This document shows positions 1,368-23,230 of a stretch of 32,548 nt of DNA, piece by piece. Both the position numbers and the translations under genes were made by a program. Source of the DNA: Marilutibacter aestuarii (lineage in GTDB: Bacteria; Pseudomonadota; Gammaproteobacteria; Xanthomonadales; Xanthomonadaceae); contig NZ_VICE01000060.1 in assembly GCF_006546775.1 (NCBI RefSeq), positions 1 through 32,548 on the forward strand, given 5' to 3'. The number at the start of each line of letters is the position of its first letter. Positions within the stretch are counted from its first letter, which is position 1. The notes beneath the pieces are model-generated. The model did no database searches. It was not told where the DNA came from and saw nothing but the letters and a program-made list of their open reading frames with translations.

Positions 1368-2782
<1,415 letters not shown>

Positions 2783-2786
<4 letters not shown>

Positions 2787-3829
2787 GCCGTGGCCTCCGT
2801 CGCCGCCGGCATCGGCAGCAGCAGGGTGAAGACGGTGTGCCCCGGCCGCGAGCGATAGGCCAGCGAGCCGCGGTGTTCGCGGGCGACCTGCTGCGCGAGC
2901 GCCAGGCCCAGGCCGCTGCCCTCCGCGCGCCCGGACACCAGCGGCAGGAACAGGCGCTCGGCCAGTTCGTCGGGAATGCCGCGGCCGTCGTCGATGATCT
3001 CCAGCCGCAACGCCATCGGGTGCACGTCCTCGCCGATGCGCACGCCATGCTCGGCGCGGGTGCGCAGGCTGACGTGGGTGGCGCCGGCCTCGATCGCGTT
3101 GCGGGCGAGGTTCCAGACCGCCTGCACGAGGCGGTCGGCGTCGCCCATGACGTCGGGCAGGCTGGGGTCGTAGTCGCGCAGCAGGCGCACGGCCCAGCCG
3201 GCGTCGCTCTCGGCCAGGCGCAGGACGCGCTCGAGCACGGCATGGATGTTGATGGGCGCGTGCGGACGCGATGGCGCCGGGCTCAGCAACTGGTCGAGCA
3301 GGCCGGTCAAGCGCGCGACTTCGTCCTCGATCAGGCCGATGAGCTCGCGCGATTCGGCATCGTCGACGCGGCGCGCCAGCAACTGCGCGGCACCCTTGAG
3401 CCCGGCCAGTGGATTGCGCAGTTCGTGGGCCAGGCCCTTGAGCGAGGCCGACAGCGCCGAGGGCAACAACAGGGCCGGGTCGTCGCCCGGGAATTCGTCG
3501 ACCGGGTGCGCTTCCATCCGCCATCCGCCATCGACGAGGCGGGTCAGCCAGACGTCGGCGAAGCACTCCTCATGGTCGGTGAAGCGCAATCGCGCGCGGC
3601 GTACGCGCAGGGGTGCGTCGACCTCGGCAGGCCGCGACAGCGCTTCGGCGAGGCGGCCATCGCCGGCATCAAGCGCGGCCATCGGCCAGTCCTTCAGCCG
3701 TCGCGCACCCACCCCGAGCCAGCGCGACATCGCCGCGTTGGAGCCGACGATCCGACCCTCGCCATCGCTCCAGGCCATGGGCGTCGTCAGGCTGTCGAAG
3801 GGGGGGTCGGGCGGGAGGGTCGGGGCCAT
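2783..3829 (-). CDS. ntrB: Nitrogen sensor histidine kinase NtrB (NR-II)
   Basis: A 348-aa soluble two-component kinase/phosphatase that sets NtrC phosphorylation and is controlled by PII. An N-terminal PAS-like region (about 15-110) is followed by the phospho-acceptor helix LAHELRNPLAGLKGA (His135), the N box (WNLARNAIEAGA), the G1 box DDGRGIP and the G2 box GSGLGLALAQ. No membrane segment or signal peptide is visible, as expected for NtrB. The gene ends in a 4-base ATGA overlap with ntrC. No Shine-Dalgarno sequence lies before the ATG. Instead TAATAT sits six bases upstream, so the message may be leaderless, and a consensus NtrC site overlaps this promoter. This points to negative autoregulation. 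Confidence 0.94.
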
Positions 3830-3942: not shown

Positions 3943-6900
3943 TCATGCCTGCCCGGCCGATCCCCTGTCAGTTTGGGCGGCATTCGCCCTTAGCAGGCCG
4001 ACCAGTTCGCTCAACCGGGTCCCCGCCGAACTCTTGACCAGGACCAGGTCGCCATCGCGCAGCAGGTCGGGGAGCACCTCGCCCAGGGACTCCACGTCGG
4101 CGAACCAGTCCAGGTTGCAGGCGTCGCCGAGTGCCTCCTGCAGGGTCGCCATGTAGGGGCCGCACAACAGCACGCGCTCGCTTCCAACCCCGCGCACGGC
4201 ATCGGCGAGCGAGGCGTGCAGGGCCTCGGCCTCGGGTTCGAGCTCGCGCATGTCGCCCAGCACCAGCACCCGGCGACCTCCCGGCAACGGCGTCGTGCTG
4301 TCGCGGACCAGCGCGAGCGCCGCCGTCATGGAGGCCGGATTGGCGTTGTAGGCGTCGTCGATCAAGCGCAGCCGCTTGCCATCGACCTCGAGGTCGCTCA
4401 CCTCGCCCCGGCCTGGCAGTGGCCTGAACGCGGCCAGCGCGGGCAAGGCCGCGTCCAGCTCCAGGCCCATGCCGCTCAGGGCGGCCAGGCAGGCCAGGCT
4501 GTTCATCGCCATGTGCCCACCGGGGGCTCCCAGACGGTAGGCGAACTCGCGCCCGGTCACCCGGGCCCGCACGCGGCCGGTCGCGGCGTCGTAGTCCAGG
4601 AGCCGGACGTCCGCGCCCGCGGCCCGCCCGTAGCGGAGTATCCGCAAGCCGTAGCGCGCGGCCTGCGAGGCGAAGATGCTGCATTGGGGCAGATCCGCGT
4701 TGAGGACCGCCAGGCCGCCCGGCCGCATGCCGCTGAAGATGCGGGACTTGCGCCGCGCGACTTCGTCGACGCTGCCGTGGTAGCGGAGGTGCGCCGCCGT
4801 CACGTTGGTCACCACCGCGACATCGGGACGCGCCAGCCGGGCCCCCTGCCCCATGCGCCCAACCGCCATTTCCAGCACCGTGAAACGCGCATCCCACGCC
4901 ATCGAGGCGAGGTTCCAGGCGATCCCGGGCGGCAGGTTGGCGTTGTGGCGGGTGCGATTGGTGGGCCCGTAGCACGCCAGTACGTCGGCCAGCATGGCCA
5001 CGGTGGTGGTCTTGCCCGAGCTGCCGGTCACCCCCAGCACCTGTCCCGCCATGCGCGAACGCGCGTATTCCCCCATCGCGAGGACGGCATGCTTTCGATC
5101 GTCCACCCCCAGCACCGGCACGCCCGTCTCGATCGAGCGAACATCCTCCAGGTCGACATCGACGATGACGGCCGCGGGTCGATCGTGCAGGCGCGCCAGC
5201 GTCGTGGGGGCCAGGCCGAGCGGCTGGTCGTCGAAGCGGGCGACGACCATGTGCCCGGGCAGCATCGACGGGCTCCAGTAGCACAGGCCGGTCGCACGCC
5301 AGGACGGTTCCCGCGGCGGCCGCAGCCAGGTACCGCCGGTGGCCTCCTCCACGGCACTCGCGGTCCAGCCGCACGTTGCGTCCGGCGGTGACGCCCGGGC
5401 TCGCCGGGCATGGGCGACGACGGGAGCCGGCCAGTGGTCGCCCGCCACGTAGCACAGGTGCCAGGGCTCGCCCTCGACCGGCCAGCACCAACCGAATGCC
5501 GACGCGTGCTCGCGCAACCAGCGCCAGCGCGCCTCCTGGCGCACCCGGTCGACATCCACGGCCAGGCCCCAGCCATGCATGGACGATCCCGGCAAGGCCG
5601 CGGGCGCGAGGCCGGGCCGAAGCCACCAGGGGCTGCCACGCCACTGCACGCAAGCGCCGCCATTGCCACGCGCCGGGGGCTGCGTGGTGTAGCGCTTTTC
5701 GAACAGCCGCATCTGCAGGCCCAGGTTGCGATAGGTATCGAGTACGTGCGTCGGTTCGATGAGCACGCCATCGGCTTGCGCGGCGAGGCGCATCGCATCC
5801 CAGGCCATCGCCGCGCGCCAGTGCAGGCGGCCGCCGTGGATGGGCCGCAACAGGCCCTCGTCGAGGCGGCCGTTGGCCTGTCCCTCCAGGTCCGCGGGCA
5901 ACGCCAGCGGCGGTGCCATCTCCGGTGACTTCGTGGGGGGCGGCGTGGTGGGCTCGCGCACCGCGCGCCCGGACAGGACGAGGTGCTTCCAGTACGCGAC
6001 ATAGCCCGAGAGATAGTGCTCCACGTCGTCGATGCGCACCCGGAAACCATGGTGCCGGATGAAGAATCCGTCCAGCACGCGGCGCGGATTGCGGAAGAAC
6101 ATCGCCAGCTCGGGCCAGAAGAATCCCGAAAGCAGGTAGCGGGCCCGTGCTTCCAGGGCTTCGTCGAACTTGCCCAGGTCGAAGCCGTCAAGGAGCCGCG
6201 CATGGTCCTGGTCGGCAGCAAGGCGGTCGATCATGTTCCGGGCCGCCATCATCAGTTCCAGCAGGGTCGGGAATGTGGTGATGCGGTCGCGGACGAAGTC
6301 CAGGTGGCCCTGGACGTTGTCCAGCCCGAAGCGGTAGTAGCGGGACAGCGGGCGGTGCATCGTCAGCTCGTTGACGCAATAGCCGAGCCAATGGTCGTGC
6401 GCGCGCCAGTGCTCCACTGCGATGAAATGCCCGAAGGCCTTCTCGACCGCTTCGAGCCAGCGCGCGTTCCTGTCAAGCGCATACAGCCGCATCAGTCCGA
6501 ACGCCGCCTCGCCGTCGTAGTACACGATCCGCTTGCGTGCCTTCAGCGCGAGCGACGGGAATGCCAGCACGTGCACGAACTCCCCGCTGGAGGCATCCTG
6601 CATGTGGACGATGCCCGTCGCCAGCCGTTCCATCAACGGCAGGTCGCCGCGCTCGCCGGTCAGCTCGGCATGCTTGGCCAAGGCGAGCAGGGCCACCGCG
6701 TTGCCGCCCAGCTTGATCTCGTCGCCGACGTCCACCAGGAAGGCTGCGCGCGCGCCTCCCGGCAGCCTGGCGTCGCGGACAAGGTCCCGTCGAAGGCAGT
6801 CCAGCGCCCGGTCGATGGCGGCCTTGTGCGCGCCATCGCGCGTGAGCTCCCAACCCTCCAGCAGTGCATAGGTCGAACTGGCATGGCGCAGGGTGTTGTA

Positions 6901-7743
6901 ATGGGGGATCTCGCGATCGAAGCAGGGAAAGCATCCGTAGGCGTAGCGCCCGTCCGCGCGCACCTGCCGGGCCAGGTAACCGGTGCTCTTGCGGATCACC
7001 TCCATCACTCGCGCGGCACCCCAGTCGGGCACCGTCCTGTAGCCACGGTTGCGGCCTGCATGCTCGATCGCATGGACGCCATCGGCGTCGGCGAACACGG
7101 CGCGGGTATCGAACAGCCACACCGGCCGCTCCGGGTCCTCCGGCCATGCCATTCCCGCGCCGAAGCGGCGCCTGGCGTAGGCGCGCAGGTTGACCGGGTT
7201 GGGCGTGGCCACGGCGCTCCGGTTGTCGTAGAGCAGGGCGTTGCCGGCGATCTCCAGGGGCAGGAAGGCGCGCTCCAGGCGTGCGTCGAATGCGATTCCG
7301 CGTCGCCAGTAATTGCGCTTGGTCGCGGCCATCTGCTTGTGGACGCGCGCCCATGTGGTGGCCTGCACGGCACAGGCGAACTCCACCCGAAGCCAACAGG
7401 GCGCATCACCCCGGGCGGCCCGGTCGTGCTCCAGTCGCGCCGCACCCAGGGCCCATGCACCCTCGAAATCCGAGGCCCGCACGTCGATCACGTGGGCACG
7501 CTCGTCACCGTTGCAAGTGGCGAAGAACAGCATGCAGTTGGCCGGATCGGCCAGGCCGCTGGCCGTGCATTCGCGCCACTGCTGTTCCAGCATGCCCCGC
7601 GCGCGGTCCAGCAGGAACGCCAGCCCCGGCGACGGCGGCCGCGTCGCGTCTGCGGCCGGCGCGAGCGCGCGACGGGCTTCCCCGGCGCTGCTCGCGGACA
7701 TCGGCTCGCCTCGGGGTGCGGGCGTATCTTCCAAACTGTTCAT
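3943..7743 (-). CDS. Fusion: unassigned N-terminal region, M15 D,D-peptidase, MurF-like ligase
   Basis: A 1266-aa protein with no signal peptide or membrane segment, so probably cytosolic. Residues about 40-240 are not recognised. About 245-590 look helical and rich in aromatics (for example HYNTLRHASSTYALLEGW) and may be an alpha/alpha-toroid, but this is a guess. About 640-775 form an M15-type D-Ala-D-Ala peptidase: SMHGWGLAVD (His723, Asp730) and GEPWHLCY (Glu759, His762) supply the zinc ligands and catalytic Glu. About 825-1255 form a Mur ligase closest to MurF: P-loop GVTGSSGKTTT (904-914), a central Glu (958) before PDVAVVTNVTAAHL, DDAYNANPASM and LGDMRELEPEA. The start follows the hlyD-like stop by 35 bases, making it the last gene of the secretion operon. 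MurF joins D-Ala-D-Ala to a muramyl tripeptide and M15 enzymes cleave such bonds, so one chain holds opposing chemistries. The true substrate is unknown. Confidence 0.8.
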   Translation of the reverse strand: MNSLEDTPAPRGEPMSASSAGEARRALAPAADATRPPSPGLAFLLDRARGMLEQQWRECTASGLADPANCMLFFATCNGDERAHVIDVRASDFEGAWALGAARLEHDRAARGDAPCWLRVEFACAVQATTWARVHKQMAATKRNYWRRGIAFDARLERAFLPLEIAGNALLYDNRSAVATPNPVNLRAYARRRFGAGMAWPEDPERPVWLFDTRAVFADADGVHAIEHAGRNRGYRTVPDWGAARVMEVIRKSTGYLARQVRADGRYAYGCFPCFDREIPHYNTLRHASSTYALLEGWELTRDGAHKAAIDRALDCLRRDLVRDARLPGGARAAFLVDVGDEIKLGGNAVALLALAKHAELTGERGDLPLMERLATGIVHMQDASSGEFVHVLAFPSLALKARKRIVYYDGEAAFGLMRLYALDRNARWLEAVEKAFGHFIAVEHWRAHDHWLGYCVNELTMHRPLSRYYRFGLDNVQGHLDFVRDRITTFPTLLELMMAARNMIDRLAADQDHARLLDGFDLGKFDEALEARARYLLSGFFWPELAMFFRNPRRVLDGFFIRHHGFRVRIDDVEHYLSGYVAYWKHLVLSGRAVREPTTPPPTKSPEMAPPLALPADLEGQANGRLDEGLLRPIHGGRLHWRAAMAWDAMRLAAQADGVLIEPTHVLDTYRNLGLQMRLFEKRYTTQPPARGNGGACVQWRGSPWWLRPGLAPAALPGSSMHGWGLAVDVDRVRQEARWRWLREHASAFGWCWPVEGEPWHLCYVAGDHWPAPVVAHARRARASPPDATCGWTASAVEEATGGTWLRPPREPSWRATGLCYWSPSMLPGHMVVARFDDQPLGLAPTTLARLHDRPAAVIVDVDLEDVRSIETGVPVLGVDDRKHAVLAMGEYARSRMAGQVLGVTGSSGKTTTVAMLADVLACYGPTNRTRHNANLPPGIAWNLASMAWDARFTVLEMAVGRMGQGARLARPDVAVVTNVTAAHLRYHGSVDEVARRKSRIFSGMRPGGLAVLNADLPQCSIFASQAARYGLRILRYGRAAGADVRLLDYDAATGRVRARVTGREFAYRLGAPGGHMAMNSLACLAALSGMGLELDAALPALAAFRPLPGRGEVSDLEVDGKRLRLIDDAYNANPASMTAALALVRDSTTPLPGGRRVLVLGDMRELEPEAEALHASLADAVRGVGSERVLLCGPYMATLQEALGDACNLDWFADVESLGEVLPDLLRDGDLVLVKSSAGTRLSELVGLLRANAAQTDRGSAGQA

Positions 7744-7778: not shown

Positions 7779-8969
7779 TCAGCGTTCGCGCAGGGCTTCA
7801 CCTGCGCGATTGAGGGGTTTCACCAGGTAGCTCATGATCGTCTTGCTCCCGGTCTGGATGTCGGCGGTGGCGACCATGCCAGGGAAGATCCCGAACGTGC
7901 GGCCGCGCGCATTGGTCAGGTGGTCGCGATCGGTGCGGATGAAGACCCGGTAGTAGTAGACCTCGGGCTTGACTTCGTCCTGGATGGTGTCGGGCGAGAT
8001 CATGGTGACCTCGCCCTCGAGCCCGCCATAGATGTGGTAGTCGTACGCCGTGATCTTGACCATGGCGCGCTGCCCCGGATGCAGGAAGGCCACGTCACGC
8101 GGGGCGATTCGCGCTTCGATCAGCAACTGGTCGTCCAGGGGGACGATCTCCATGAGCTTGCCGTTGGGCGGGATGACGCCGCCCACCGTCGTGACCTCGA
8201 TGTTCTTCACGATGCCCTTCACCGGCGAGACGATCGTGGAACGCGCCAACGCATCGGCACGCCCGCGCGTCACCGACTTCTGCTCCAGTACCTGCGCGTT
8301 CGCCAATGCCAGCTCCTCGCGTGCGCTGACGAGGTACTGGGTCCGCAGGTCGGTGATCTTGTTCTGCAGTTCGTTGGCCTGCCGGCGCAGTCGCAGCACC
8401 TCCACGTCGCTCGCGGCGCCACGTGCGGCCAGCGGCTCGGTCAACCCGATTTCCTGGTTGACCAGCGCGAGCGCGCGGCTCAGGCCGCCCACGCTTTCAT
8501 TCAGGCTTTCCCGGCGCGAGCGATACAGGGCGGTCTCTGCCTGGACGAGTGCGGCATCGTCGGCGACGGCCGGGGGGAACTCCAGTTCGCCGCCGCCCAC
8601 CTCCGCCCGAAGCCGGGCAGCCTTGGCCAGCGCGGCGCGCATCCTGGACGCGCTTTCCTCGACCGTCGCTTCCGCCCGGGTCGGGTCGAGGCGGGCGAGC
8701 ACCTGCCCCGCCTCCACCACGTCGCCCTCGCGCACCTCCAGCTGGGCGACGATGCCGCCCTCCAGCGACTGCACCACCTGTTCGCGCGAGCTGGGCACCA
8801 CGCGGCCGGGGCCGGAGGTCACCTCGTCGAGTTCGAACAGGCAGGCCCAGAGCAGCAGGGCGCCCAGGCACAGGACGCTCGCCCAGACGACGCGCGAAGC
8901 AAGCGGCGGCGGCAGCGTGCCCAGGCCCATGCCACCCCGTGTCCAGTCGCTGCCCTGACGAATCGTCAT
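7779..8969 (-). CDS. HlyD-family type I secretion membrane fusion protein
   Basis: A 396-aa periplasmic adaptor linking the inner-membrane ABC exporter to the outer-membrane channel. A short cytosolic N-terminus precedes one transmembrane helix (about 25-46, ending LWACLFELDEV). The first biotinyl/lipoyl half follows (GPGRVVPSSREQVVQSLEGG), then a long coiled coil (about 100-240), the second lipoyl half and the beta-barrel domain. The C-terminus SYLVKPLNRAGEALRER is typical of RTX/LapC-type adaptors. The start at 8969 overlaps the ABC gene stop in an ATGA junction; the longer upstream reading frame is out-of-frame ABC sequence. Together with the preceding two genes it makes a complete type I secretion system. 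The likely cargo is the BapA-like protein at the head of the operon. Confidence 0.93.
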   Translation of the reverse strand: MTIRQGSDWTRGGMGLGTLPPPLASRVVWASVLCLGALLLWACLFELDEVTSGPGRVVPSSREQVVQSLEGGIVAQLEVREGDVVEAGQVLARLDPTRAEATVEESASRMRAALAKAARLRAEVGGGELEFPPAVADDAALVQAETALYRSRRESLNESVGGLSRALALVNQEIGLTEPLAARGAASDVEVLRLRRQANELQNKITDLRTQYLVSAREELALANAQVLEQKSVTRGRADALARSTIVSPVKGIVKNIEVTTVGGVIPPNGKLMEIVPLDDQLLIEARIAPRDVAFLHPGQRAMVKITAYDYHIYGGLEGEVTMISPDTIQDEVKPEVYYYRVFIRTDRDHLTNARGRTFGIFPGMVATADIQTGSKTIMSYLVKPLNRAGEALRER

Positions 8970-11134
8970 GGTCGTCGCTCCGACGCCGGGCGGACGACGC
9001 GACTTGCCGACGCAGGCCGCACCAGCACTTCGTCCTTGCGGCCATCGCGCAGCACGCGACCGCCGTCGATGACGATGATGCGATCCACGCACTTGAGCAC
9101 CGCCGGTCGGTGCGTGGCCACGACCAGGGTGCGTTCGCCCAGCCATTCGCCGAGACTGGTGATGAAGCGGCGCTCGCTGGCGTCGTCCAGCCATGCCGTG
9201 GGCTCATCCAGCAACAGCACGTTCGGCTGGCCCAACAGGGTGCGCGCCAGCAGCAGCAACTGCCGCTGGCCGCCCGAAAGCCCTCGCCCGCCTTCCTGGA
9301 CGCGATGGTCGAGGCCATCGGGAAGCGCACGCACGACGCTCTCCGCACCGCTGACGCGCAGCGCTTTCAACAGGTCCGCGTCGGTGGCGTGCGGCCGGCC
9401 CAGGGTGAGATTCTCCCTGAGCGTCCCGAAGAACAGGCTTGCATTCTGGTTGAGCAGTCCCACGTCGCGACGGGTGTCCATCGGATCCAGGACGGAGGTC
9501 TTCACCCCATCGAGCACGACCCGGCCCTCCCGGGGATACTGCATTCCCGCCAGCAACTGCAGCAGGGTGGACTTGCCGGCGCCGTTGCGACCGAGCAGGG
9601 CCACCCGTTCGCCTTCGGCAATAACCAGCCGGTCTATGTCGAGCACCCGCCTGTCGTCCTCACCCGGATAGCCGAAACGCAGGTCGGTGAGCTCGTAGCG
9701 TCCGCGCAAGGCGGTTCGGTGCACGCGGGCGGCGCGTTCGGGCTGGTCGACCGGCTTTGACATCAGCTCATCCAGGCCCTCGCGCGCGACCTTCGCCTGC
9801 TGCCAGCGCACCATCACGCCGGTCATCTGCGACAGCGGTGCCACCATCCGCGAGGCCAGCATCGAGCAACCTACCAGGACGCCCACCGACAAGGCCCCAT
9901 CCATCACCGCGTATGCCCCGACCAGGACCACGCAGGTGTAAACCAGTTGCTGGACTTCCTGGGTCCAGGCCACCAGCACGCCGCTGATCCCCCGCAACCG
10001 CATGCCCACGTCGGCCGTGGTTTCGTTGAGGTGGTTCCACTGGTTCTGGAAGCGCGGCTCGGCGCGCAGCAGCTTGATGTCGTCGAGGTTGTGGACGGTT
10101 TCCACGAGCATGGCGCTGCGCAGCGAGGACTCGCGCATGCCTTCCCTGGCAAGCCGGGCGAGGGGGCGCTGCGCGAGCAGGCCGGGTACCAACAACACGG
10201 GGATGGCCAGCAGGGGCACGAGCGCGAGGTGGCCACCAATCAGCCAGATGACGACCAGGAACAGGAAGAAGAAGGGCAGGTCGGCGATCGCCCCGACCGT
10301 GGTCGAGGTGACGAGCTCCCTGATCTGCTCGAGCTCGCGAATCTGTGCGATGAAACTCCCGGTGGAACGCGGACGCGCGTCGTTGCGGATGCGCAAGGCG
10401 TGGCCAAAGACGCGATCCGAGACACGCAGGTCGGCGCGCTTGCCGACCACCTCGGAGATGTGCGTCCTGAGCACGCGCATGACGAAGGCGAAGCTCAACG
10501 CAACGAGCAGTCCGCCGAACAGCACCCACAAGGTCGGGATCGACTGCGCCGGGATGACGCGATCGTAGACCTGCATGGTGAACAGCATCGCCGCAAGCGT
10601 GAGGATGTTGGCGACCACCGATGCCAGCATGACGTCCAGGTAACGCGGCCAGTCCTGCAGCACGGTCCTGAGCAGCCAGTCGCCCTTGACCGGCTGGATG
10701 TACTCGTCCACGCGCGCATCGCTCACTTCCGATGCCGGCTTGACCAGCAGGACCCGCTCGACCCGCGCCTGGAGGGCTTCCCGGTCCAGGCGGGTGACCA
10801 GGCCCTGCTCGCCGCTCAGGCGCACGCTGGCGACGCCGTCGGCATCGACCTGGTCGACGACGCCGACCAGACCGTCGTCGATGCCGATCACCAAGGGCAC
10901 CCGCCAGGGATCCAGCATGCCTGGCTCGAAGGCCATGGGCACCGCGACCAGGCCGAGTTGCCGCGCCATCAATTCGACCACTTCCTCCAGCGGAGCGTCG
11001 CGCGCCCGCCACTGTGCTTCCACCCGTACGCGCTCCTCGGAGGCATCGATCCGGTAGTGGCGGGCGATCGCCAGCAGGGCTTCCAGCCATGGCGCGTGGT
11101 CCGGCGTGGACACCTGGCCGCGGACGGTGCTCAT
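8966..11134 (-). CDS. Type I secretion ABC transporter, LapB/RtxB-like permease-ATPase
   Basis: A 722-aa inner-membrane exporter. The N-terminal about 150 residues have the length and position of a C39 peptidase-like domain but contain no cysteine, so this is the non-catalytic type that docks cargo. A transmembrane region follows (about 165-440). The ATPase domain carries Walker A GRNGAGKST (Lys521), signature LSGGQRQ, Walker B VLLLDEPTAWLDD and the switch His in ATHRP. It overlaps the tolC-like stop by 4 bases (ATGA at 11131-11134) and the hlyD-like start by 4 bases, so the three subunits are translationally coupled. Lack of the C39 cysteine fits adhesin/RTX exporters rather than bacteriocin exporters that cut a double-glycine leader. 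Confidence 0.94.
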   Translation of the reverse strand: MSTVRGQVSTPDHAPWLEALLAIARHYRIDASEERVRVEAQWRARDAPLEEVVELMARQLGLVAVPMAFEPGMLDPWRVPLVIGIDDGLVGVVDQVDADGVASVRLSGEQGLVTRLDREALQARVERVLLVKPASEVSDARVDEYIQPVKGDWLLRTVLQDWPRYLDVMLASVVANILTLAAMLFTMQVYDRVIPAQSIPTLWVLFGGLLVALSFAFVMRVLRTHISEVVGKRADLRVSDRVFGHALRIRNDARPRSTGSFIAQIRELEQIRELVTSTTVGAIADLPFFFLFLVVIWLIGGHLALVPLLAIPVLLVPGLLAQRPLARLAREGMRESSLRSAMLVETVHNLDDIKLLRAEPRFQNQWNHLNETTADVGMRLRGISGVLVAWTQEVQQLVYTCVVLVGAYAVMDGALSVGVLVGCSMLASRMVAPLSQMTGVMVRWQQAKVAREGLDELMSKPVDQPERAARVHRTALRGRYELTDLRFGYPGEDDRRVLDIDRLVIAEGERVALLGRNGAGKSTLLQLLAGMQYPREGRVVLDGVKTSVLDPMDTRRDVGLLNQNASLFFGTLRENLTLGRPHATDADLLKALRVSGAESVVRALPDGLDHRVQEGGRGLSGGQRQLLLLARTLLGQPNVLLLDEPTAWLDDASERRFITSLGEWLGERTLVVATHRPAVLKCVDRIIVIDGGRVLRDGRKDEVLVRPASASRVVRPASERRP

Positions 11135-12561
11135 GGCGCATGTCCATCGCCGCGGAAGGCATCGTCATGAACCCCGAACGCAGCGCGCGCGCGGCCCGTC
11201 GCCAGCAGGAGGCCCAGCCTCGCATCCCAAAGATCGTGACGCGCGTTGACCAGGTCCTCCCTCGACAATCCGATTTCCTGTTCAGCGTTCAGGAGGTCCA
11301 GGGCATTGCGCGTGCCCAGCGAGAGGTACTGGTCCCAGTACAGGCTGCGGGTCTCGGTGATGCTGTTCACGCGGGCCTCCAGCACGTCCATCCGCGCAAG
11401 GAGGCCCTGGATCTGTTCCACGTGCCGCTGCTGTTCGTCGCGCGCGGACAGCCGTTCTGCCTGCAGCCGCGCCTCGGCTGCCTGCAACGCGGCCGCGCTC
11501 GCCCGTGATCGCGCCGACAGCTCCCCGCCCTGGTAGAGGGGGCTGCGCAAGGAGATGAACGCCGTGCTGTACTGCTCATCGCCGTAGACCTGCTCGTAGC
11601 GATCGCTGGTACCGCCAAGCCTCATGTTGGCGTTGGCTTCCAGCACGATCGTGGGATAGCGTTGCGCGCGGACATTCCGCAGTTCGGCCTGGGCGGCTTC
11701 GCGGTCGGCCCTGGCGACCTGCAGCGCGGGCACTGAGTCGAGGTCGAATCCTTCCGTCGCCGCATCCAGCAGCGCAGCCGGCGCCGGGGCGACCGCCTGC
11801 AACGCGTCGGGGCCGATGTAGATCGACAGGCGGCTGCGCCATTGGCGAAGCTGCGACTCGATCCCCAGCAGGCGTGCCTGCGTCGCTTCCATCCTCGAAC
11901 GCGCCTGGAGCGGGTCGCTTCGCGTTGCCGCGCCCGCGTCCGCGCGCAACTCGGTGATCTCCCGGATGCGGTCCAGCGCCTCCAGTTGCGCCTGCACGCT
12001 CTCGCGCAGCGCCTGGTTTCGATGGATCTCGATCAGGGCCCGGGTGGTGTCCTCGACCACCTGGTCCACCGCCCGCAACGCAAGCGCACGCTCGCCACGT
12101 TCCCCTGCGCGCTCCCGCTCGACCGCACTGCCGGTCTTGCCGAAGTCGTAAAGGGTCTGGCTGAGTCCGAGCGTGGCGACCTGGCCCGTGCCGAACTGAT
12201 CGGGCTCGCCGCTGCTGAGTTCCGCCTGCAGCCGAGGACGATAGCCGGCGCGCGCCGCCCGCACGAGGCTCGACTGCGCATCGAGCGCGGCCCGGGCCGC
12301 GGCGACGCTGGGATGCCGCGCCACCGCGGTCCGTATCGCTTCGCGCCAGTCCAGCCCCGGACCCGCCCGCGAAGACAGTACGCCGGTTGCCGGCGCGGGA
12401 GCGGCATGGAGCTGCATGCCCGCCCGACCGGCCTCCCGTGGCGCTTCGCCATGTTCGCGCCAGGCAGGGCCCGCGCGTGGCCCCGCCGACAGCAGCGCCA
12501 GCACCATCAGCGCGGCGACAGAGAGCGCAGCGGGGCCGCGACTCAAACCGCCCCCCGCCAC
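11131..12561 (-). CDS. TolC-family outer membrane efflux/secretion protein
   Basis: A 476-aa outer-membrane channel of the type I secretion system. The N-terminal hydrophobic run (SVAALMVLALLSAGPRAGPA) is a signal peptide. The mature part has the two repeated OEP halves: DWREAIRTAVARHPSVAAAR near the start and long amphipathic helices with GYRPRLQAELSSG and RAQRYPTIVLEANANM. These are the Y-P/R-P entries to the beta strands typical of TolC. The start is GTG (12559-12561) and is uncertain: purine-rich sequence lies somewhat far upstream, and an internal Met inside the hydrophobic run is possible but would weaken the signal peptide. It follows the adhesin gene after 106 bases. Within the cluster it supplies the exit duct for the adhesin. 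Confidence 0.9.
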   Translation of the reverse strand: MAGGGLSRGPAALSVAALMVLALLSAGPRAGPAWREHGEAPREAGRAGMQLHAAPAPATGVLSSRAGPGLDWREAIRTAVARHPSVAAARAALDAQSSLVRAARAGYRPRLQAELSSGEPDQFGTGQVATLGLSQTLYDFGKTGSAVERERAGERGERALALRAVDQVVEDTTRALIEIHRNQALRESVQAQLEALDRIREITELRADAGAATRSDPLQARSRMEATQARLLGIESQLRQWRSRLSIYIGPDALQAVAPAPAALLDAATEGFDLDSVPALQVARADREAAQAELRNVRAQRYPTIVLEANANMRLGGTSDRYEQVYGDEQYSTAFISLRSPLYQGGELSARSRASAAALQAAEARLQAERLSARDEQQRHVEQIQGLLARMDVLEARVNSITETRSLYWDQYLSLGTRNALDLLNAEQEIGLSREDLVNARHDLWDARLGLLLATGRARAAFGVHDDAFRGDGHAP

Positions 12562-12667
12562 GCCAAAGCACGCGCCCTCCCTCGTTCCCTCGGCCGGGCG
12601 AGTTCAGTGGTGGGGCTCGCCGCGCCAAAAAGGGCCTGCCTCGGAGACACCACGCTTCTCCCTTGGT

Positions 12668-16159
<3,492 letters not shown>

Positions 16160-21779: not shown

Positions 21780-23189
21780 TCAGTTGGCGTAGTACAGCTG
21801 GTACTCGAGCGGGTGGGTCGCGGCGCGGAACTTCGTGACCTCCTGCATCTTCAGCGCGATGTAGCCGTCGATGAAGTCATCGGTGAACACGCCGCCGGCC
21901 TTGAGGAACTCGCGATCCTTGTCCAGCGCCTCCAGCGCCTGGTCGAGGCTGTGGCACACGGTGGGGATGTTCTTCTCCTCCTCCGGCGGCAGGTCGTAGA
22001 GGTCCTTGTCGCTGGGCGCGCCCGGGTCGATCTGGTTCTTGATGCCGTCCAGGCCGGCCATCATCAGCGCGGCGAAGGTCAGGTAGCCCGACTGCATCGG
22101 ATCCGGGAAGCGGAACTCGATGCGGCGCGCCTTCGGGTTGGACACGTACGGGATGCGGCAGCTGGCCGAGCGGTTGCGGGCCGAGTAGGCCAGCATCACC
22201 GGCGCCTCGAAGCCCGGGACCAGGCGCTTGTAGCTGTTGGTGGTGGCGTTGGTGAAGGCGTTGATCGCGCGCGCGTGCTTGAACACGCCGCCGATGTACC
22301 ACAGCGCCATCTGGCTCAGGCCACCGTAGCCATCGCCGCTGAAGAGGTTGTTGCCCCCCTTGGCCAGCGACTGGTGGACATGCATGCCGCTGCCGTTGTC
22401 GCCGACGATCGGCTTGGGCATGAAGGTCGCGGTCTTGCCGTTGCGGAAGGCGACGTTCTTGATGATGTACTTCATCATCAGCAGTTCGTCGGCCTTCTTG
22501 ACCAGCGAATTGAATTTGGTGCCGATCTCGCACTGCCCGGCATTGGCGACCTCGTGGTGATGGACCTCGACCTCGATGCCGACTTCCTCGAGGATCTTGC
22601 ACATCTCGGCGCGGATGTCGTGCAGCGAGTCGACCGGCGCGACCGGGAAGTAACCGCCCTTGATGCCGGGACGATAGCCGCTGTTGCCGCCCTCGTACTC
22701 CTTGGCGGAGTTCCAGTGCGCTTCTTCCGAGTCAATGTGGAAGAACGTGTTGCCCATCTCGTTGGCGTAGCGCACCGAGTCGAAGATGAAGAACTCCGGC
22801 TCCGGGCCGAAGAAGGCCTGCTCGGCGATGCCGCTGGCCTTCAGGTAGGCCTCGGCGCGCTTGGCGACGCCGCGGGGATCGCGCGAGTACGACTGCATGG
22901 TGGCCGGATCGAGGATGTCGCAGGTCATCACCAGGGTCGGATCGGCGGTGAAGGGATCCAGGTAGGCCGTGCTCGGATCGGGCAGCAGCACCATGTCGGA
23001 CTCGTTGATGCCCTTCCAGCCGTTGATCGACGAACCGTCGAACATCTTGCCGTCCTCGAACAGCGAGGCATCGACGATGGACTTCGGGTAGGTGACGTGG
23101 TGCTGCACGCCACGCATGTCGGCGAAGCGCAGGTCGACGAATTCGACCTTGTGGTCACGGACAAGCTTTTCGACATTCTCAAGCGACAT
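21780..23189 (-). CDS. glnA: Glutamine synthetase type I
   Basis: A 469-aa dodecameric enzyme joining ammonium to glutamate with ATP, the entry point of nitrogen assimilation. The length is the same as E. coli GlnA. Visible signatures include [18 protein letters not shown] near the N-terminus, [10 protein letters not shown] (metal-binding Glu), [11 protein letters not shown], the [12 protein letters not shown]-site segment and the adenylylation loop [10 protein letters not shown] with Tyr398. The start ATG at 23189 begins MSLENVEKL as in homologues; an in-frame TTG six codons upstream is less likely. Transcription probably starts near 23219 from a sigma-54 promoter driven by NtrC. Activity should also be set by GlnE adenylylation. 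Confidence 0.98.
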
Positions 23190-23230
23190 GGGATTACGGC
23201 CTTCCAATTGGGGTGGATACCCAAGCTAAC

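Follow-up and report, generated by a model that had tools for sequence, protein, structure and literature searches.

Long Asp-Ala and Ser-Asp tracks are widespread in biofilm and surface adhesins, and in the literature found only the glycosylation of Ser-Asp tracks has been explained. In staphylococci, the dedicated enzymes SdgA and SdgB modify such a dipeptide repeat by placing N-acetylglucosamine on Ser-Asp, which shields the repeats from cathepsin G (PMC3794999; this and the following papers are cited for the parts consulted). In cyanophycin synthetase (CphA1), a Mur-like domain adds Arg to the Asp side chains of poly-Asp, and the N domain is metallopeptidase-like (PMC9262961). Lmo1799 of Listeria carries 226 Ala-Asp repeats (PMC8687577). 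BapA of Paracoccus denitrificans, an adhesin with 891 Asp-Ala that lies beside type I secretion genes (BapBCD) and is needed for biofilm, runs at more than 300 kDa versus a predicted 212 kDa, its modification being left open by the authors (PMC5588039). The present analysis concerns a fusion enzyme of 1266 amino acids (aa) and the Asp-Ala adhesin of the same gene run in Marilutibacter aestuarii; both are encoded on contig NZ_VICE01000060.1 (assembly GCF_006546775.1), and the whole stretch of 32,548 nucleotides, which is all of contig 15, is called the window. No description of this system was found in the open-licence PMC literature.

The fusion enzyme is very probably part of the maturation of the neighbouring adhesin. 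This reading rests on the architecture of the chain, its intact site residues, the gene context, an association with Asp-X repeats that held whether tested from NT loci or from BapA_N adhesins, and a choice of partner module that follows the second residue of the repeat. The parts of the enzyme and the adhesin are as follows:

3943..7743, minus strand: fusion enzyme, 1266 aa (ATG at 7743; last gene of the adhesin run)
5938..7638, minus strand: N-terminal module, here called NT, residues 36-602, unnamed family (alignments A1 and A2; AlphaFold model)
7027..7638, minus strand: alpha/beta sub-domain of NT, residues 36-239 (AlphaFold model; fold matches barely reach it)
5959..7026, minus strand: predicted (alpha/alpha)6 barrel of NT, residues 240-595 (AlphaFold model and fold matches)
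5443..5829, minus strand: M15 (VanY-type) zinc peptidase domain, residues 639-767 (Pfam; H723, D730, E759, H762)
5032..5373, minus strand: Mur ligase N-domain, reduced, residues 791-904 (the D and R that are invariant in MurF, aligned with 823 and 825, replaced)
4027..5031, minus strand: ATP-binding and C-terminal domains of the Mur ligase, residues 905-1239 (Pfam, alignment, tree)
12668..16159, minus strand: BapA-type adhesin, 1163 aa (BapA_N, Big_6 and Big_9 domains)
14540..15397, minus strand: dipeptide repeat of 143 Asp-X units, 141 of them Asp-Ala, the proposed substrate (sequence count)

On balance, and with reserve, the fusion is held to be a cytosolic maturation enzyme that amidates Asp side chains of the Asp-Ala-repeat adhesin from the same gene run. 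Regarding the substrate, the amine donor, the extent of modification, the role of the M15 domain and the order of steps, we infer the following scheme. The (alpha/alpha)6 barrel would bind or process the acidic repeat, the Mur domain would use ATP to activate Asp side-chain carboxylates and join to them an amine (an amino acid or a short peptide), the M15 domain may trim or edit the product, and the modified adhesin would be exported through the type I secretion system (T1SS). Since NT is found both with T1SS adhesins and with LPXTG-like surface proteins, the step must take place ahead of export by either of two different routes.

The fusion gene lies near a dipeptide-repeat adhesin gene, as in an SdgA/SdgB-like arrangement, and the glycosyltransferase (GT) partners of NT in other loci stand mostly beside Asp-Ser adhesins; the window enzyme, however, has a Mur ligase and an M15 domain and, by Pfam, no GT domain, and Ser is absent from its target repeat. 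As in CphA1, a Mur-like and a metallopeptidase-like domain are combined in one chain, but no ATP-grasp domain was detected in the window protein (Pfam), the cyanophycin synthetase model TIGR02068 scores 37 bits against a cut-off of 850, and the proposed backbone is ribosomal Asp-Ala. With its BapA_N adhesin and T1SS genes the window locus is of the BapA type; the consulted part of PMC5588039 names no Mur or NT-like gene for Paracoccus, the gene neighbourhood itself not having been examined. A far-reaching version of the proposal is considered rather unlikely, namely a ribosomal cyanophycin-like surface polymer in which a MurF-like ligase gone from wall synthesis would attach an amino acid or D-Ala-D-Ala by an isopeptide bond to most Asp of (Asp-Ala)n and the fused D,D-peptidase would trim the product, turning an acidic rod into a neutral stalk that resists proteases, and in which the barrel would mark a general maturation of Asp-X repeats in Gram-negative and Gram-positive bacteria. 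If the maturation reading is true, a common barrel enzyme with interchangeable ligase, GT and peptidase modules would be what completes Asp-Ala tracks, the large apparent size of Paracoccus BapA might have its cause here, and a cell-wall-type ligase would have been turned into a protein-modifying enzyme.

Runs of at least ten D-[AST] units were found in 53 of 105 NT loci (window included; NT was re-found in 105/105), compared with 0/20 random 20-kb regions from G462, G657 and G365, which are genomes holding NT or a distant NT relative (G and L numbers denote genomes and loci). L151 = L064 and L152 = L086 are duplicates in NT and L089/L090 are copies; after merging of near-identical NT, runs remained in 53/102 (99.5% identity), 53/99 (97%) and 44/74 (90%). 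Residues 1-600 had not been connected with the adjacent adhesin in the sequence-only reading made earlier from the letters and open reading frames (ORFs) of this DNA, and the survey of homologue neighbourhoods now places Asp-X adhesins at about half of the loci. In the converse direction, BapA_N adhesins occurred in 22/394 genomes of the phylum sample. Two of these genomes hold NT, the window genome (G000) and G657, and each of them carries the repeat (143 Asp-X units in the former, a run of 952 in the latter); the other 20, without an NT match in the search of the sample, showed no repeat and again no NT in the regions examined (26 places, three on cut contigs), of which that of G764 covered 1.5 kb and that of the longest adhesin (G728, 7217 aa) stopped before its end. 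This test, confined to BapA_N adhesins, gave p=0.005 with 2 and 19 genomes.

Partner modules were labelled by hand in 55 repeat-bearing loci (L184, L186 and L187 stand outside this table). Where Asp-Ala dominates, the partner was a Mur or ATP-grasp ligase in 28 loci and a GT in two; where Asp-Ser/Thr dominates, it was a ligase in three and a GT in 14 (one of them, L162, with a distant NT), and no partner was detected in the remaining 8/55 (Fisher p=2e-7). Counted by genus the table reads 18/2/3/9 (p=3e-4), or p=7e-4 if L149, whose NT is 93% identical to that of Klebsiella L009, is taken as Klebsiella; merging NT at 90% and dropping L162 gives 24/2/3/10 (p=2e-5). Common descent still links the loci, and the list of the best 80 is skewed towards near relatives. 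Mur and ATP-grasp enzymes form amide bonds on carboxylates through acyl phosphates. Asp-Ala tracks offer Asp side chains only and Ser/Thr tracks offer hydroxyls for GTs, a rule that fits the observed pairing with five exceptions.

Several observations weigh against the maturation reading. No D-[AST] run lies near NT in 52/105 loci, 31 of them named Variovorax, and no Asp-rich stretch was seen in these 52 except at L159 (Asp-Gly); in the run-less loci L044, L054, L059 and L089 an adhesin-like ORF continues past the end of the stretch, and at L160 no adhesin-like ORF is in view upstream of TolC. Among five distant NT relatives with flanks, Asp-Thr repeats lie near L110 and L162 and none were seen at L108, L109 and L161. 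The class sample gave BapA_N in 1/370 genomes, the window itself, and is uninformative. The pairing of repeat and partner is broken by Asp-Ser loci with a ligase (L075, L106, L158) and Asp-Ala loci with a GT (L034, L053). At six Asp-Ala loci no ligase was detected with NT; these, together with Listeria and Enterococcus, indicate that the ligase is not obligatory, and the fact that NT accompanies several Asp-Ala adhesins in this way points to an independent function of the barrel. M15 is present in just 1/111 NT loci, the type-A Mur domains described below (22 sequences) do not form a single clade, and S11-like domains fused to Mur ligases elsewhere lack their SxxK motif, so that a peptidase fold need not imply cleavage.

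MurF is the ligase family nearest in sequence to the window Mur domain, which has the DDAYNANP motif as in MurF and retains the P-loop Lys911, Glu958, His985 and Lys999, in agreement with the earlier description of an intact-looking Mur ligase, as far as residues can tell. In a comparison of 16 true MurF with 22 type-A (window included) and 30 type-B domains, K911, E958, H985, K999 and D1129 were retained in 22/22 type-A domains; in type B, K911, E958, K999 and D1129 were found in 30/30 and H985 in 0/30. A D and an R that are invariant in MurF (16/16) and aligned with W823 and P825 of the window protein, and which we take to be part of a nucleotide-binding motif, occur in 0/22 type-A domains and in 2/30 and 1/30 type-B domains. 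The window domain scores 263.1 with the MurF model TIGR01143 (cut-off 288.6) and 288 with PRK14093 (cut-off 544). In a tree of 49 rows it falls inside a type-A clade of 17 rows (98/98), separate from that of true MurF (100/100); of the remaining type-A rows, L077 and three staphylococcal ones group with type B and L106 is a long branch by MurF, long branches being flagged.

These results bear on a reading of the fusion as a cell-wall enzyme that edits or makes peptidoglycan precursors or the D-Ala-D-Ala dipeptide (VanX/VanY-like plus MurF). The domain names and the DDAYNANP motif speak for it, and the sequence-only reading had implied such cutting and making of D-Ala-D-Ala bonds, with muramyl substrates. 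It was rejected, and is considered very unlikely, on the grounds of the missed MurF cut-offs, the lost MurF-invariant N-domain residues, the separate clade, a MurF of its own encoded separately in the same genome, and the adhesin gene context.

The fusion ORF has no internal stop across 3943-7743 on the minus strand, and its ATG lies 35 bp past the HlyD stop. Pfam detected VanY at residues 639-767 (41.6 bits, cut-off 25), Mur_ligase_M at 905-1088 (115.9 bits, cut-off 24) and Mur_ligase_C at 1123-1239 (62.1 bits, cut-off 28.4), and no further family up to E=1; the three-part chain first described from the sequence is thereby borne out. Third codon positions have a GC content of 0.82-0.94 throughout the frame, M15 insert included, which is consistent with one gene. 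Fusions of the N-terminal module with Mur, and split NT/Mur pairs, were seen repeatedly in other loci, and an artefactual joint between the two, of the kind once named as a possible refutation, is unlikely for this reason. In the own genome, two further matches to the fusion were found, both partial and in the Mur region. A promoter/terminator scan of the window gave no signal above shuffled sequences. At the N-terminus no hydrophobic stretch or export signal was seen by eye. From this and the ATP-using partner domains the enzyme is likely cytosolic, which upholds the earlier placement of the peptidase.

All zinc-binding and catalytic residues of the M15 domain (His723, Asp730, Glu759, His762) are in place in an alignment, so that the site, as judged from sequence, still looks intact as first described, and the domain could be aligned to D-Ala-D-Ala carboxypeptidases whose structures are solved (5hnm, E=0.0013). 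It shares with VanY-type M15 peptidases a Pfam score above cut-off and a complete zinc site, but is embedded between barrel and ligase, and no export signal was seen by eye. M15 was found in the window alone and in 0/110 other, partly overlapping loci (L184-L187 outside the scan), where phmmer was run with a single query sequence and could therefore miss remote relatives; viral contigs scanned with M15 gave no relative either. So far the insert is a unique addition. This rarity is what would favour an assembly or sequencing artefact within an ordinary NT and Mur fusion, an explanation that is extremely unlikely given the open frame, the third-position GC that stays at 0.82-0.94 through the insert, the intact zinc residues and the placement of the insert between the two modules. 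Active S11 peptidases had been expected with Mur ligases in Enterobacterales, but SxxK is lost in 9/9 fused copies (by eye); a separate ORF in L092 retains SLTK. At L039 (5634-8993) and eight similar loci, Mur is fused to the SxxK-less S11-like domain, in most cases with a CapA-like one too, divergent from the barrel gene. A match of the staphylococcal Mur C-terminus to S11 (hhalign probability 14.8, E=0.0018) was not relied on.

The first 600 residues had been called helical and unassigned. The helical character stands, the AlphaFold model predicting an (alpha/alpha)6 barrel; they are no longer unassigned, belonging to a family found near Asp-X repeat adhesins. The window N-terminus has no sequence-family match in Pfam or NCBIfam, and the NT profile gave one match to PDB sequences (E=0.045, not used). 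Fold comparison of the NT model (VIA-align on the Foldseek top 1000) matched the barrel to 2-epimerases, and also to GH76 mannanases and terpene synthases; its rows hardly extend to residues 36-239, for which no fold was assigned. Near the N-terminus of one distant NT relative (L161), an AMMECR1 match of 18.0 bits (cut-off 25) is a hint only. The modelled barrel would thus be shared with AGE/cellobiose 2-epimerase, without a sequence-family match of the window N-terminus; the corresponding model scores 20.4 bits on the Listeria NT (cut-off 800). On this likeness the barrel could be the main enzyme, epimerising or isomerising repeat Asp, with ligase and peptidase modules from D-amino-acid metabolism acting on the altered chain. 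This is quite unlikely, as the fold alone proves no function, being matched by mannanases and terpene synthases too. Stand-alone NT is named 'poly(glycerol-phosphate) alpha-glucosyltransferase' in several records, including staphylococcal ones and L184 (8776-10434); NCBIfam glycosyltransferase models did not match the Listeria L184 NT, the only such copy tested.

The barrel contains 48 of the 56 polar residues invariant across 44 NT sequences. K911, E958 and K999 are invariant in 52/52 Mur domains of NT loci, window included. These invariances, the intact M15 zinc residues and a module choice that tracks the repeat residue argue against an export chaperone, in which barrel, Mur and M15 would only bind the acidic repeat and keep it until it is secreted, with no lasting chemistry. 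That explanation, which draws on barrels adjoining Asp-Ala adhesins without a detected ligase (L042, L052, L060, L071, L184, L186) and on the degenerate look of the fused S11-like domains, is unlikely.

Upstream of the fusion, the adhesin, TolC, ABC transporter and HlyD genes all lie on the same strand; the three secretion genes, named from matching annotated genes in related loci, are:

7779..8969, minus strand: HlyD-type adaptor of type I secretion, start inferred
8966..11134, minus strand: type I secretion ABC transporter
11131..12561, minus strand: TolC-family outer membrane protein

The set of repeat adhesin, TolC, T1SS ABC transporter, HlyD and NT enzyme was also found in Agrobacterium, Nitratireductor and Klebsiella plasmid records, in the order of the window except at L005, where TolC comes first. 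Fused to NT or in the same stretch are Mur (two sequence types), GT4, GT2, ATP-grasp, CapA-like (PGA_cap) and S11-like partners; the ATP-grasp domains are YheC/D-type, and RimK-like too in L013. There (9968-14950), NT is fused to three ATP-grasp domains (one YheC/D-like, two RimK-like) and adjoins an Asp-Ala adhesin. At L052 the NT gene is followed by a Peptidase_C93 gene, a LapD-type gene and the repeat adhesin, an arrangement that L042, L060 and L071 resemble by eye; the names LapG and LapA presumably apply in such loci. In Gram-positive loci, NT (in staphylococci also Mur) accompanies surface proteins that have LPXTG-like ends and whose repeats are Asp-Ala or a mixture of Asp-Ala and Asp-Ser. 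NT and Mur adjoin an Asp-Ala/Asp-Ser Sdr-type protein in S. simulans, and NT adjoins Asp-Ala surface proteins, with no ligase annotated beside it, in Enterococcus and Listeria (L184, where from the gene order we take the gene to be that of Lmo1799). In A. baumannii (L185) NT adjoins a protein with a T1SS target domain, but no repeat was seen.

Asp-Gly or Asp-Thr repeat proteins take the place of Asp-Ala/Asp-Ser tracks in some NT or distant NT loci (L159, 5784-8954; L110, 11363-17458; L162, 17698-19011), Asp being the residue that does not change. In L161 (7024-12919 and 1328-5539), three distant NT relatives in tandem lie near a Mur and CapA protein. On one G824 contig (L150, L158), two NT enzymes stand about 20 kb apart, one accompanied by CapA and Mur without a repeat in view, the other with Mur adjoining an Asp-Ser repeat protein. 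In the window, an NtrB/NtrC-like pair downstream of the fusion and, further off, glutamine synthetase (1368-3829 and 21780-23207, by eye) show that the adhesin run borders nitrogen-regulation genes.

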